Below, in pieces: positions 14,273 through 20,311 of a DNA stretch of 64,000 nt (positions within the stretch are counted from its first letter, which is position 1; each line of letters opens with the position of its first letter). The DNA comes from Roseomonas sp. Lineage in GTDB: Bacteria; Pseudomonadota; Alphaproteobacteria; Acetobacterales; Acetobacteraceae. The stretch lies in the NCBI GenBank assembly GCA_020249775.1, contig JADCFA010000021.1, positions 248,001-312,000 of the forward strand, written 5' to 3'. Made by a program: the position numbers and the translations under genes. The notes beneath the pieces were generated by a model. It was given only the letters and a program-made list of their open reading frames with translations. It searched no databases and was not told the DNA's origin.

Positions 14273-14339
14273 CCCCCCTCGAAATCCCGCCCCATAGCGC
14301 CTATATCTGCTGCGTCACTTCTGTGACTATGGCGATAAA

Positions 14340-14591
14340 CACGGCTCGGAATAAGCGTTGCGGACCCGGGGGCGGTACCCGGCGCCTCCACCAATCACCC
14401 GCCTTATCAGCGGCAGATGGGGGCGAAACAGGCTCGACGCGCGTGGTAAAGGGGACGCTTTTGCCCGGCATTGTACCGCCGTTATCGGGCTAAACCTTAA
14501 GTGCGAACGATAACAGCCGCGAGGCTGTCGCACTCGCTGCCTAATAGGTAAGCGCGGCTCGGGGGGCGCCGGGCAACAGAAGCCCCCCACT
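14340..14591 (+). ncRNA. ssrA: Circularly permuted (two-piece) tmRNA; 5' boundary approximate
   Basis: Acceptor piece ends ...CCGGG-GGCGGTA-CCCGG-CGCCTCC-ACCA at 14393 (T-arm, acceptor 3' strand); 25-nt intervening segment; coding piece begins GGGGGCGAAACAGGCTCGACGCG at 14419 whose GGGGGCG pairs with CGCCTCC (7 bp, G3-U70 wobble). Tag reading frame GCG AAC GAT AAC AGC CGC GAG GCT GTC GCA CTC GCT GCC TAA = ANDNSREAVALAA*. Ends with GGGGGGC...GCCCCCC hairpin. Confidence 0.93.
14503..14544 (+). other. tmRNA proteolysis-tag reading frame (ANDNSREAVALAA*)
   Basis: Direct translation inside the ssrA coding piece; ANDN... start and LAA end are typical of tags. Confidence 0.92.
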
Positions 14592-14630: not shown

Positions 14631-15146
14631 ATGAGCGAGAAATCCCCCCCGCCCGAAAGCCTGCTGCCTTACGAAGCCTGGTCCGAAGAAGCCATGCGCG
14701 AAGTCGTATGGCACGCCTTGGAACATGCCGCGCAACACGGCCTGCCGGGGGAGCATCATTTCTACCTGAGCTACCGCACCGACCATCCGGGCGTTGCGAT
14801 CCCAGGGCACCTCAAGGCGAAATACCCGCAGGAAATCACCATTGTCCTGCAACATCAATTCGACGGGCTGTTTGTGGACCGCGTGGCGGAGCGCTTTGGC
14901 GTGACGCTGCGTTTCGGTGGCGTGCCGGCAAAGCTGGTGATCCCCTTTGGTGCGCTGACCATGTTCCACGATCCGCATGTGCGCTTTGGGCTGCGCTTCA
15001 CGCCAAGCGGCCTTGAAGATGAAAAGGTGGGGCTGCCTGAAGCACCCGCCGCCGCGCCGCCGCCCCCCACGCCCGCGCCAGCAGCACCGGGCGAGGTGGT
15101 CAGCCTTGATGCCTTCCGCCGCCGCCCGAATAAGGACGGCGGTTAA
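14631..15146 (+). CDS. sspB: Alpha-type SspB, ClpXP adaptor for ssrA-tagged proteins
   Basis: LLPYEAWSEEAMREVVWHALEHAAQHGLPGEHHFYLSYRTDHPGVAIPGHLKAKYPQEITIVLQHQFDGLFVDRVAERFGVTLRFGGVPAKLVIPF; acidic/Pro-rich C-terminal tail. Confidence 0.9.
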   Translation: MSEKSPPPESLLPYEAWSEEAMREVVWHALEHAAQHGLPGEHHFYLSYRTDHPGVAIPGHLKAKYPQEITIVLQHQFDGLFVDRVAERFGVTLRFGGVPAKLVIPFGALTMFHDPHVRFGLRFTPSGLEDEKVGLPEAPAAAPPPPTPAPAAPGEVVSLDAFRRRPNKDGG

Positions 15147-18100
15147 GGCTGGATCGCGATCCGCCCGGTATTCTGACGGGCGAAAAAGGCCGGGCGATAC
15201 ATATCCCGCACCTCGGCGCCGGGCAGTTCAAAACTCCCGGCCGTGACAGCGCGCAACCGCACGGCAATGCGCGCCACGCGGTTTTCGCCTTCCAAGGTCA
15301 CCGCTGCGGCGAAGCGGTCATCCAAGGCGGGCTGGCTGTCAATCGCGGTCAATGCGCCAAGCCAGGGCAGGCCCGACACTTCCCCCGCGCCAAAGCGCCC
15401 GGTGATTTCCCAACCCGCCGGCAGGCCCTGTTGCAGCAGCAATTGATGCCGGTCATCGGCATCCGCGCGGGCTTCCAGCAGCAGAATAAAGCCATCCCCG
15501 GCGCGTAGCGTATCAAGATTGAGCGCCGAACCATCCAGCGCATGAAAATGCCGCGTGACGCGCAGCCCCTGACGCGCGGCGGGTTGCGCCTCACGCGGGA
15601 TGCCTTTTGTCGCCACCATTTGCCAAACCGTGGTGGCGCCCCGGTTATGCAAGCGCGCCGCACCGGCAAGCGGCGCCACAATCACCGGGGCGGCGGGCAG
15701 CGCCACGCCATCCAGGCTTGCTTCGATCGGACGCATACCTTGGCCCAAACGCGCGGCGGCCAGCACCGCCCAGGCCTGTTCCTGCGTGCTGGTATTCTCC
15801 GGCGTGAAATTTTGCCCCGGGAGGGCGCCCATCAGCGCCGCCAGCCGATCCCCGAGCAAACCACTTTCCTTGAGCAAACTCGCCAGCGCCAGCGCATCAC
15901 GCTGCGCCGTGCCGTAATCAAAACTCCACCAGCGGCGGCTGAGGTTTGAAAGTGCCGCGTTGAAAGCCTGCTCCGCCCGCGCCCGATCCCCGCCGCGCGT
16001 AAACACCGCGCCCAATTGCGCGAGCGACAGCGGGGTTGGCATATCGCCCGCATTTTCCATCAACCGCCGCGCCGCACCCAAGCGCACGCGCCCTGCCATG
16101 GCCAGCGCATGCAGCCGATAGGCTTGCGCGGCGCGTTCTTCCGGCGTGGCTTCCCCCGTATCGCCCACCGCATCATCCAGGAAACGCAGCGCATCATTCA
16201 AGGCGGCTTCCGGCAGCGTTGCGCCCGCGCTGCGCGCGCGCAGCAGCGCTTCCACCGCGAAGGGTGTCAGCCACAATTCCGCTTCCGCATTGGCAGACCA
16301 AAGGCCGAAAGCGCCATCAAAACGCTGCCGATCCAAAATGGCCTGCACGGCTGCTTGCAGCCGGGCCGCGTGATCAGCGCCACCTACTGGCGCAAACAGC
16401 CCCGCACTCAGCGCAATGGCGCGCGCGGCACTTTGTTCCAGGCACGCCAGAGGAAAGGCTTCCACAGCACGCAAGGCCGCCGCCGCATCATAGCGCACCA
16501 CAGCACCAAGGCTGAGTTCCGCCCGCGCCGTGCCAGGAATGAAGCGATCAAAGGCAGGAGCGACCTCACGCTCTGCTCCGCCGGGCAATTCGGCCGATTG
16601 CACATCGGTAAGCAATGGCCGCGCGGGGCGAATGGTGATGCGGCTTTCGCGCGTAAGGCTGAAACCCTGCGGACCGCTGAGACGCAAGCGCAACACGCCC
16701 TCTCCACCCGCAACGGCACGCAGGCCAGTCGCAGGCGCGGCGCGTTCACCCGTCGCAAGCTGTGCGGCCAAGCGCGTTGGCCCTTCAATCGCAATCGCGC
16801 CCTCGGTGCTGAGTTCGGCGACAATCTCACCCGCCGGCAATTCGATATTATGCATCAGCACCGGCAGGCGCGCCGTATCTCCGGGGGCGAGGAAGCGCGG
16901 CAAGGCGGCTTCCACCACCGCCTGATCGCGCACGGTCATGGCGCGGCTGGCGGCACCAATGCGCGCGCCTTCCCAGGCCACCGCCATCAGGCGCAATTCG
17001 CCCGCGAAATCCGGAACATCAAGCGCGATCACCGCCGCGCCATCCGCACCCACGCGCACGGGACCGGAGAATAGAGACACCAATCTTTGCGGCGGCTGAA
17101 TGCCCATCCCCGCCAAGCCGCCATCACCGCCCTGGCGCAACAAGGCAAGCGCACCTTCCGCCGGCGCCAATAGCCGCCCGTAATCATCGCGGATATCCAC
17201 ACCCAGCGCGCGCTTGCCGAGGAAATGCGCCCCCGGATCGGGTGAGGCAAAGCCGGTCAGGCGCAAAATCCCCTCATCCACCGCGGCGAGCGTCACCATG
17301 GCCTCACCCCGCGCCTCCGCAATGCGGATCGGGATTTCCACGCGCTGGCGCGGGCGGATGCGTTCCGGGGCCGAGATTGTCACCTCAAGCCGGCGCGGCG
17401 CCGGATCAAGCCCAATCCAGGCCAGGCCGAGCGCGCGGCCGGGGCGGCCGTCACGCGCCTCACCCGGGCGATAGGCGGTGATGGTGATATAGGCGCCTGG
17501 CCCCCAGGCAGAATCCACCGGCACTTCGATATCCGTGCCCGCTTCACTCAGCGTAATTTCGCGCAGCGACACCAAACGATCCGTCAGCACCGCAACGGTG
17601 GCCGGCCCCGCAAAGGGCGGCGTGATGCGCAGCCGCGCAACTTCCCCCGACGCGAAATTACGGCGCTCAGCCGCGACATCAATCCGGTCCGGAATTTCCG
17701 CGCTTTCCACACCAGCCCAGCCGGCGCGGAAGCGATAGGATACCATGCCAAGCCCATCCGCATCGGCGATTTCCAGCCGATAACGGCCAAAGGGCAGGCT
17801 GCGCGCGAAGCGCGTGGGCGCGGCGGGGTTGATGGTGAGTTCTGCCGCATCCACCGGTTCATCACGCCAGACGGTTTCAAACCGTGCGATGGAATCGCGC
17901 ATCACCAACCGCCAATCCGGCCTTTCGCGCAGCAAGCGTAGCCTAAGCCGCGCCGGTGCGGCACTGCCATCAGGTGCTACGGCAGCGATATCAAAAGCCG
18001 CTTCCGCGCCGGCATCTATCGCATCACCCTGAAAGGCAGGGCGCAGCACGGGAAACAGGCCCGCAGCACGCACCGGGACGGCAATGCGCGCGCGGCTTTC

Positions 18101-20254
18101 GCGCCCGCCGGGCTCCGCTATCGCCAGCGTGACATTCGCCTTGATGGGCAGCGTTGTGTCTGGTGCGCGCGGCAGCGTTAATGCAACAACACCGCGCCCT
18201 TCACGATCCAGCGGCGGGATTTCCTGCGTGATCAAATCAGGCGCGAAGCTTTCATCCTGCAAACCAAAGCGCCAGCCGCGCCAGGCTTCAAAAGGCTCGG
18301 GGTCCGGCAGCAGGCGAATCTCGGCATTGCCCGTGAGCCCAGCGCCCGGCGCGCCATACAGAAAGCGCGCGCTGATCGGCAGGTTGAGCGCATTCGCGCC
18401 CGGCACCAAAGGCCCAGGCGCCGGCCCGGCGGTGACTTCCAAGCCTTCCGGCACAAAGGCATCCACGCGGAATTGCGCGCGCCCAATCGGCGGCAGGGCA
18501 GGATCAGCGAGGGCTTCAATATTCCATTGCCCATAGACCGCGCCATCAGAAAGCCGAAGCGGCCAGGAAATGGCGCCCCCCATCAGGCGCGGCGGCGTGA
18601 TTTCCGCCGCGATCTGCCCATTAGGCCGCCGCAGCCGGAGCCTGACCGGCAAATCCTGCGGATTGCCAGCGGCATCGCGCAAAAGCCCCGTCAGATTGAC
18701 GGTCTCGCCTGGGCGATAAATGCCGCGATCAAGCCAGAGGAACGCATCAAGCGGGCCGGGATGCGCGCGGCCCGAGGCACCGCGATCCGATAGATCAAAA
18801 CTCGCCGCTTCAAGATTGAGCGCGGCAAGATCATCCGGCGCGTCGGCATGAATGGCGAAGGGCGCCAACGGCCCCTGCCCGCGCAGTAATGCAAGTGGAA
18901 AACGCGCAAGCCCCGCTGCATCCGTGCGCGCTTCCGCCAGCACATCATTATTGCGCGCCATGAGTGTCACGCGCAGACCTGCTTTCACCTGCCCCGATTG
19001 AAAGCCGCGCGCCTGCACGGCAAGCCCATCCGCGCCGCGCCACGCGGTCAGCCCGATATCCGTGACGAAAAACGGAAAGGCAGCGGCGGCGCCGTCACCG
19101 CGGCGGGTTTCACCTTGCCGGGCGGAGAGCACGTAAAGCCCCGGTGCGGCATCGCGCAGCAGATCAGCAAGCGGCAGCGCATGGCGAGTCAAGCGATTGG
19201 GCGCACCGCCCTGCAAGGCGGCACTGCCTTCCCACAGCACGCGCCCGCTTTGTTCGCCGATATATTGCGCCATCCATTGATCCAAAGCCTCACCCGGACG
19301 CCAGCGTTCGCGGAGCGTGATCAGGTTGCGCTCGGAAAGGCGGATCAGGCGAAGCTGCAGATTTTCGATATTGATCGTCGCCACACCAAGCCGCGGCGCC
19401 TGACCGCGTGGCAGAATGAAGGCGCGGTTTTCGAAAACAATGCGCGCTTCGCGATTCGGCATGGCGATAGCAAGCGGCGTATCGGCGCGCAGATTGCCGC
19501 CTTCACCCGGCAGGCCCGCGCGCAGAATCAGCCGCGTGGTCTGGCCCCAGGGCAGGCCGCCCACGCAAAGCTGATCGGCTTCTCGTTCGATGGTGAGGTT
19601 GGGCAGGGCCGGGTCAGCGCGCACCCAATCTTCCGCGCGCCAATCGCTGCGCCGCGCGGGCGGGATGGTGAAGGTGATGCAGGCGCGCGCGGGTTCGGCA
19701 TCCGGTTCGGGGTTCACGCGCCGCACCAGCATGCCAGCGGCGCGGCGCGCGGTATCAAGCGCTGCCTTGTGGCGGGCATCATTGGGTAGGCGTTCCACGA
19801 CGGCTTCAAGCGCTTCCACCTGTTGCGCGAGGCGATCCTGCCGGCGCAGCGCTTCGGCAATCAGCAGCAGCGGGGGGACTTCGGGTTCTCCACCTGGGGC
19901 GAATTGAAAGGCGCGCCAGGCGGCTTGCAGGGCGCGGCTGTTTTCGGGCGGTGTGCGGGCAAGCTGCGCTTCAGCAAGCGCCAACCAATGATCGGCATTG
20001 CTATTGCCAAGCCCGATGCGTTCTTCCAGGGCAGTGGCAGCGGCGGCGAAATCCCGCCGCGCTGTCGCATCTTGCGCACGGCGTTCTGCGGCGGCGCGCT
20101 GTTGCGGCGTACCACCGGCAGGGAACCGGCGTTGCAGGCTTTGCTGATAGGCGCCGGATTCCTGCGACAGGCCTGGCAAATCAAAGCCCTGCGCCCCCGC
20201 ATGCATAGGGGCAAGGGCCAAGAGCAGTATCAGCAAAAGGCGCGGCAGCTTCAT
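15143..20254 (-). CDS. Bacterial alpha-2-macroglobulin family protein with intact thioester motif
   Basis: About 1700 aa; signal peptide MKLPRLLLILLLALAPMHAGAQ; MG domains (AFLWLDRGIYRPGETVNLTGLLRD); thioester motif FPLACLEQSAARAIALS. Confidence 0.93.
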   Translation of the reverse strand: MKLPRLLLILLLALAPMHAGAQGFDLPGLSQESGAYQQSLQRRFPAGGTPQQRAAAERRAQDATARRDFAAAATALEERIGLGNSNADHWLALAEAQLARTPPENSRALQAAWRAFQFAPGGEPEVPPLLLIAEALRRQDRLAQQVEALEAVVERLPNDARHKAALDTARRAAGMLVRRVNPEPDAEPARACITFTIPPARRSDWRAEDWVRADPALPNLTIEREADQLCVGGLPWGQTTRLILRAGLPGEGGNLRADTPLAIAMPNREARIVFENRAFILPRGQAPRLGVATINIENLQLRLIRLSERNLITLRERWRPGEALDQWMAQYIGEQSGRVLWEGSAALQGGAPNRLTRHALPLADLLRDAAPGLYVLSARQGETRRGDGAAAAFPFFVTDIGLTAWRGADGLAVQARGFQSGQVKAGLRVTLMARNNDVLAEARTDAAGLARFPLALLRGQGPLAPFAIHADAPDDLAALNLEAASFDLSDRGASGRAHPGPLDAFLWLDRGIYRPGETVNLTGLLRDAAGNPQDLPVRLRLRRPNGQIAAEITPPRLMGGAISWPLRLSDGAVYGQWNIEALADPALPPIGRAQFRVDAFVPEGLEVTAGPAPGPLVPGANALNLPISARFLYGAPGAGLTGNAEIRLLPDPEPFEAWRGWRFGLQDESFAPDLITQEIPPLDREGRGVVALTLPRAPDTTLPIKANVTLAIAEPGGRESRARIAVPVRAAGLFPVLRPAFQGDAIDAGAEAAFDIAAVAPDGSAAPARLRLRLLRERPDWRLVMRDSIARFETVWRDEPVDAAELTINPAAPTRFARSLPFGRYRLEIADADGLGMVSYRFRAGWAGVESAEIPDRIDVAAERRNFASGEVARLRITPPFAGPATVAVLTDRLVSLREITLSEAGTDIEVPVDSAWGPGAYITITAYRPGEARDGRPGRALGLAWIGLDPAPRRLEVTISAPERIRPRQRVEIPIRIAEARGEAMVTLAAVDEGILRLTGFASPDPGAHFLGKRALGVDIRDDYGRLLAPAEGALALLRQGGDGGLAGMGIQPPQRLVSLFSGPVRVGADGAAVIALDVPDFAGELRLMAVAWEGARIGAASRAMTVRDQAVVEAALPRFLAPGDTARLPVLMHNIELPAGEIVAELSTEGAIAIEGPTRLAAQLATGERAAPATGLRAVAGGEGVLRLRLSGPQGFSLTRESRITIRPARPLLTDVQSAELPGGAEREVAPAFDRFIPGTARAELSLGAVVRYDAAAALRAVEAFPLACLEQSAARAIALSAGLFAPVGGADHAARLQAAVQAILDRQRFDGAFGLWSANAEAELWLTPFAVEALLRARSAGATLPEAALNDALRFLDDAVGDTGEATPEERAAQAYRLHALAMAGRVRLGAARRLMENAGDMPTPLSLAQLGAVFTRGGDRARAEQAFNAALSNLSRRWWSFDYGTAQRDALALASLLKESGLLGDRLAALMGALPGQNFTPENTSTQEQAWAVLAAARLGQGMRPIEASLDGVALPAAPVIVAPLAGAARLHNRGATTVWQMVATKGIPREAQPAARQGLRVTRHFHALDGSALNLDTLRAGDGFILLLEARADADDRHQLLLQQGLPAGWEITGRFGAGEVSGLPWLGALTAIDSQPALDDRFAAAVTLEGENRVARIAVRLRAVTAGSFELPGAEVRDMYRPAFFARQNTGRIAIQP

Positions 20255-20311
20255 CGGGGGGTTCCTCGCCAAAGGCATGGCAACTTATCGCATGTTACGC
20301 GGTGGTATGCA

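Follow-up and report, generated by a model that had tools for sequence, protein, structure and literature searches.

A permuted two-piece tmRNA gene followed by sspB in a Roseomonas genome

The tmRNA gene and its neighbour

The window, a stretch of 64,000 nucleotides from a Roseomonas contig, carries a circularly permuted tmRNA gene (ssrA) and, on the same strand about 40 nt past the end of the tmRNA match, the gene for the protease adaptor SspB. tmRNA is the ribosome-rescue RNA, and nearly all alphaproteobacteria possess it in a split form. The features considered here are the following:

14278-14306, + strand: putative promoter, with CTCGAA (14278-14283), a 17-nt spacer and the -10-like CTATAT (14301-14306)
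14311-14393, + strand: acceptor piece, from the Rfam alignment and the 83-nt chain length in Caulobacter, with a probable 5' end
14394-14418, + strand: intervening segment of 25 nt, predicted to be removed (sequence, Rfam and lengths in relatives)
14419-14591, + strand: coding piece, starting with GGGGGCG and ending where the Rfam match ends (sequence, ARAGORN and Rfam), with a presumptive mature 3' end
14503-14544, + strand: tag frame ANDNSREAVALAA with its UAA stop (sequence, ARAGORN and relatives)
14552-14588, + strand: terminal H-type pseudoknot (sequence and covariation in relatives)
14631-15146, + strand: sspB, alphaproteobacterial ClpXP adaptor of 171 aa (Pfam PF04386 and phmmer)

ARAGORN called a permuted tmRNA (tmRNA*) with the tag ANDNSREAVALAA, and two Rfam covariance models matched over their full length, namely RF01849 (alpha_tmRNA; 248.9 bits, E 4e-71, 14275-14591) and RF04321 (tmRNA_permuted; 156.8 bits, 14331-14544). 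These scores lie far beyond chance and above the gathering scores of 50 and 47, respectively. The identification as a permuted two-piece tmRNA made in a preliminary description, which had itself called for a covariance-model search, is thereby borne out by strong matches. RF01849 matched once in the genome (4.07 Mb, 56 contigs, 99% complete), and we are nearly certain that 14311-14591 (+) is the organism's single ssrA, in the circularly permuted two-piece alphaproteobacterial form. Since RF01849 was found in 271 of the 290 class genomes sampled and the tag is common to other genera, the locus is an ordinary member of a well-described tmRNA family, in line with the earlier remark that the permuted form is established in alphaproteobacteria. 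Furthermore, tmRNA tools detect the locus automatically, and a 2025 survey for a tmRNA database reported 11,946 permuted sequences (PMC11915505). The tmRNA locus itself confirms existing knowledge; what goes beyond the preliminary description is the sspB gene directly downstream and the short coding piece.

Acceptor piece, split stem and intervening segment

The Caulobacter tmRNA consists of a 213-nt and an 83-nt chain (PMC1168896). With the 83-nt acceptor chain as a guide, the 5' end of the acceptor piece would fall near 14311, a few bases past CTATAT. The start at 14340 proposed previously came too late and truncated the piece, because the Rfam structure uses the hairpin at 14314-14327 (GUCAC-UUCU-GUGAC) and the helix strand at 14331-14335 as parts of it. 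These are followed by a T-arm, whose loop is non-canonical like that of the RF01849 consensus, and by CGCCUCC-ACCA. Upstream, CCTATAT was seen again in relatives, and the motif C[CT]ATA[TC] occurred in 45 of 62 family loci. A generic sigma-70 promoter scan of the window, which is a weak one, gave no match, so that the promoter remains putative.

Direct reading of the sequence placed CGCCTCC-ACCA at 14383-14393, with the CCA ending at 14393, and GGGGGCG at 14419-14425. All 7 bp of the acceptor stem can form between the two halves, including the G3:U70 wobble, and the 25-nt spacer lies between them, both as previously described; thus the sequence holds an encoded CCA as well as the alanine identity element. 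For comparison, tmRNA loci were gathered from the family and the class. A strict search demanding the 7-bp stem with G3:U70 measured 89 genes, on which the counts rest, 12 of the 101 related loci falling outside its criteria. G3:U70 was accordingly present in 89/89 genes of this search, which imposed it, and likewise in 75/75 genes of a looser search, for which six of the seven pairs sufficed and G3:U70 was not imposed. In the strict search only variation at the other pairs counts as independent evidence. At pair 5:68, the 61 family genes divided into 38 with G-C and 23 with A-U, and one class gene had U-A; pair 6:67 appeared in related genes as C-G, U-G and U-A. The intervening segment, by contrast, ranged from 5 to 105 nt among the 89 genes, its sequence being unconserved past close relatives. 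Stem sides that flank such a spacer form the pattern expected if the spacer is lost and the stem is formed between two pieces, and the covariation of the stem together with the free variation of the spacer supports a predicted excision followed by pairing in trans.

It could be argued that the tmRNA works with its intervening segment retained, as one continuous permuted molecule, since a covariance model by itself does not demonstrate cleavage. However, 25 nt would then remain past the CCA and block aminoacylation, the length of the segment is free to vary, and the Caulobacter molecule is made of two chains; we therefore consider retention very improbable.

Under the preferred reading, in which the segment is removed, the course of events in Roseomonas would resemble the mechanism established for the two-piece tmRNA of Caulobacter, where, according to Keiler et al. 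2000 (cited in PMC3985003), RNase P and tRNase Z probably make the cuts, after which come alanine charging, SmpB-aided ribosome entry, tagging and SspB-aided degradation by ClpXP. Every step of processing, charging, tagging and degradation in Roseomonas is a prediction from sequence. One precursor RNA would be transcribed, RNase P is expected to cleave 5' of G14419, and 3' processing by tRNase Z or exonucleases is expected to free the CCA at 14393. The 25-nt segment would be lost, and the two RNAs, to judge from relatives, would be held together by the acceptor stem of 7 bp as well as by other helices. Alanyl-tRNA synthetase would then charge the acceptor piece via G3:U70, and the charged tmRNA would enter stalled ribosomes with SmpB, where the coding piece would append ANDNSREAVALAA after the charged alanine. 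Finally, SspB should bind the AANDN part of the tag, for which AANDNSREAVALAA is the candidate binding peptide, and pass the protein to ClpXP, which would read the LAA end.

Tag frame and a short coding piece

The resume codon GCG lies 84 nt past the start of the coding piece, an offset that is near constant in relatives (83-87 nt). From there the frame reads ANDNSREAVALAA and then TAA, so the claim of a fully readable tag holds; the tag ends in a hydrophobic AA degron. Nearly all related tags start with ANDN and vary in the middle. A tag unique to this genome had to be rejected, as the same ANDNSREAVALAA was found in the genomes G300, G310 and G359, in Caldovatus, Belnapia, Siccirubricoccus and Falsiroseomonas, and in others. 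The stop is doubled (TAA TAG, 14542-14547); the nearest relative has TAACAG, the second stop is kept in G300, and the TAG after TAA is not a conserved feature.

The terminal pseudoknot is built from helix 1, GCGCGGC (14552-14558) with GCCGGGC (14568-14574) and one G-G mismatch, and helix 2, GGGGGGC (14561-14567) with GCCCCCC (14582-14588). Its pairs mostly covary among 94 distinct sequences. For instance, one pair was U-A in 74, C-G in 12, U-G in six and broken in two, while another was C-G in 61, G-U in 31, G-C in one and A-U in one.

The permuted order, the split stem with G3:U70, the short intervening segment, the ANDN-type tag and the terminal pseudoknot are all shared with Caulobacter crescentus ssrA (RF01849), whereas the coding piece comprises about 173 nt here as opposed to 213 nt in Caulobacter. 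It is a short form, without a segment of about 38 nt, a trait shared by every one of the 61 family members that were measured. At the locus, 29 nt separate the stop codon from CAACAGAA; the distance is 29-38 nt in 61/61 family genes (short form), compared with 67-73 nt in 28/28 high-scoring class genes (long form). By its position in the Rfam alignment and in the Caulobacter model (PMC1168896), we infer that the missing stretch is the long form's middle pseudoknot. A shortening peculiar to this genome or its family was rejected, as a distance of 28-38 nt was also found in 39 class genes, which had been picked for their short RF01849 matches. The short-form tmRNAs of Acetobacteraceae (Roseomonas, Belnapia, Siccirubricoccus, Caldovatus) have the same short coding piece, with ANDNSREAVALAA in several genera, and ours differs from them only in the intervening segment and minor substitutions. 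Two loci, L195 and L197, carry intermediate tmRNAs that fall between the short and long forms, in which 57 nt separate the stop from CAACAGAA and the tags are long (e.g. ANDNVDMSEVAIAA).

Although islands often integrate at tmRNA genes (PMC11915505), a degenerate pseudogene, or an extra copy that an island left behind while the working gene lies elsewhere, is scarcely conceivable and was rejected, as the single RF01849 match of this 99% complete genome is full length with stem, tag and pseudoknot intact, and the nearest relative keeps a nearly identical locus.

The sspB neighbourhood

The downstream protein matched PF04386 with 129.5 bits (cut-off 27, E 1.5e-37) and aligned over most of its length to the homologous SspB-alpha structures 2qas and 2qaz (phmmer, E 2.4e-32); its predicted ligand here is the ANDNSREAVALAA tag. 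The C-terminal tail V(V/I)SLDAFR is kept among relatives, the best named of which, from a Roseomonas MAG, is 94% identical, a match that points to a Roseomonas-like member of the Acetobacteraceae. The genome contains one SspB gene and one SmpB gene, the latter on a separate contig (C4:125614-126042, PF01668 E 3.9e-51). Upstream of the tmRNA on the same strand lies an M20-family amidohydrolase gene, and farther off are thyX and a gene for an Mrp/ApbC-type protein.

SspB was detected in 259 of the 290 class genomes. Both genes were among the matches listed for 104 class genomes, and in 82 of these sspB followed ssrA, on the same strand and at a distance of at most 1.5 kb. This proportion is not an unbiased estimate, as the matches listed lean to higher scores. 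In the other 22 of these 104, the genes were within 8 kb in 13, far apart in two and on different contigs in seven. The chance expectation of such adjacency is about 0.00025 per genome. Within the stretches fetched for the family, sspB was downstream on the same strand in 40 of 55 loci. A simple scan for intrinsic terminators, again a weak one, found none in the ssrA-sspB interval of the window, which suggests that no terminator of the simple type separates the two genes, and their co-transcription is plausible. Going further, ssrA and sspB might form a conserved transcription unit of Alphaproteobacteria in which the tmRNA precursor doubles as a 5' leader for the mRNA of the adaptor, an idea that we put forward tentatively and judge somewhat more doubtful than probable. 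If true, RNA processing would link tag supply to the supply of the adaptor delivering tagged products to ClpXP. In the open papers we found no mention of an ssrA-sspB linkage; key SspB-alpha papers lay outside that scope, and we claim no novelty for it. The sspB neighbourhood is a more useful observation than the tmRNA itself, and its conservation leads to a simple, testable idea of how alphaproteobacteria may match tagging to the degradation of the tagged proteins.

Two further observations were made. Convergent with sspB, and overlapping its end by 4 bases, is a gene for a bacterial alpha-2-macroglobulin-like protein of 1711 aa (15143-20278). In addition, a tandem pair of AANDN motifs was seen in other alphaproteobacterial tags, including that of a Micavibrio MAG (e.g. 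ANDNVAFVAANDNTVVEGDVRKAA; loci L206:1759, L222:1026, L223:884 and L224-L227:1501), at a spacing of 15 nt that was fixed by the search; RF01849 matches were confirmed for L222 and L223. Such a bivalent tag might engage both halves of the SspB dimer.
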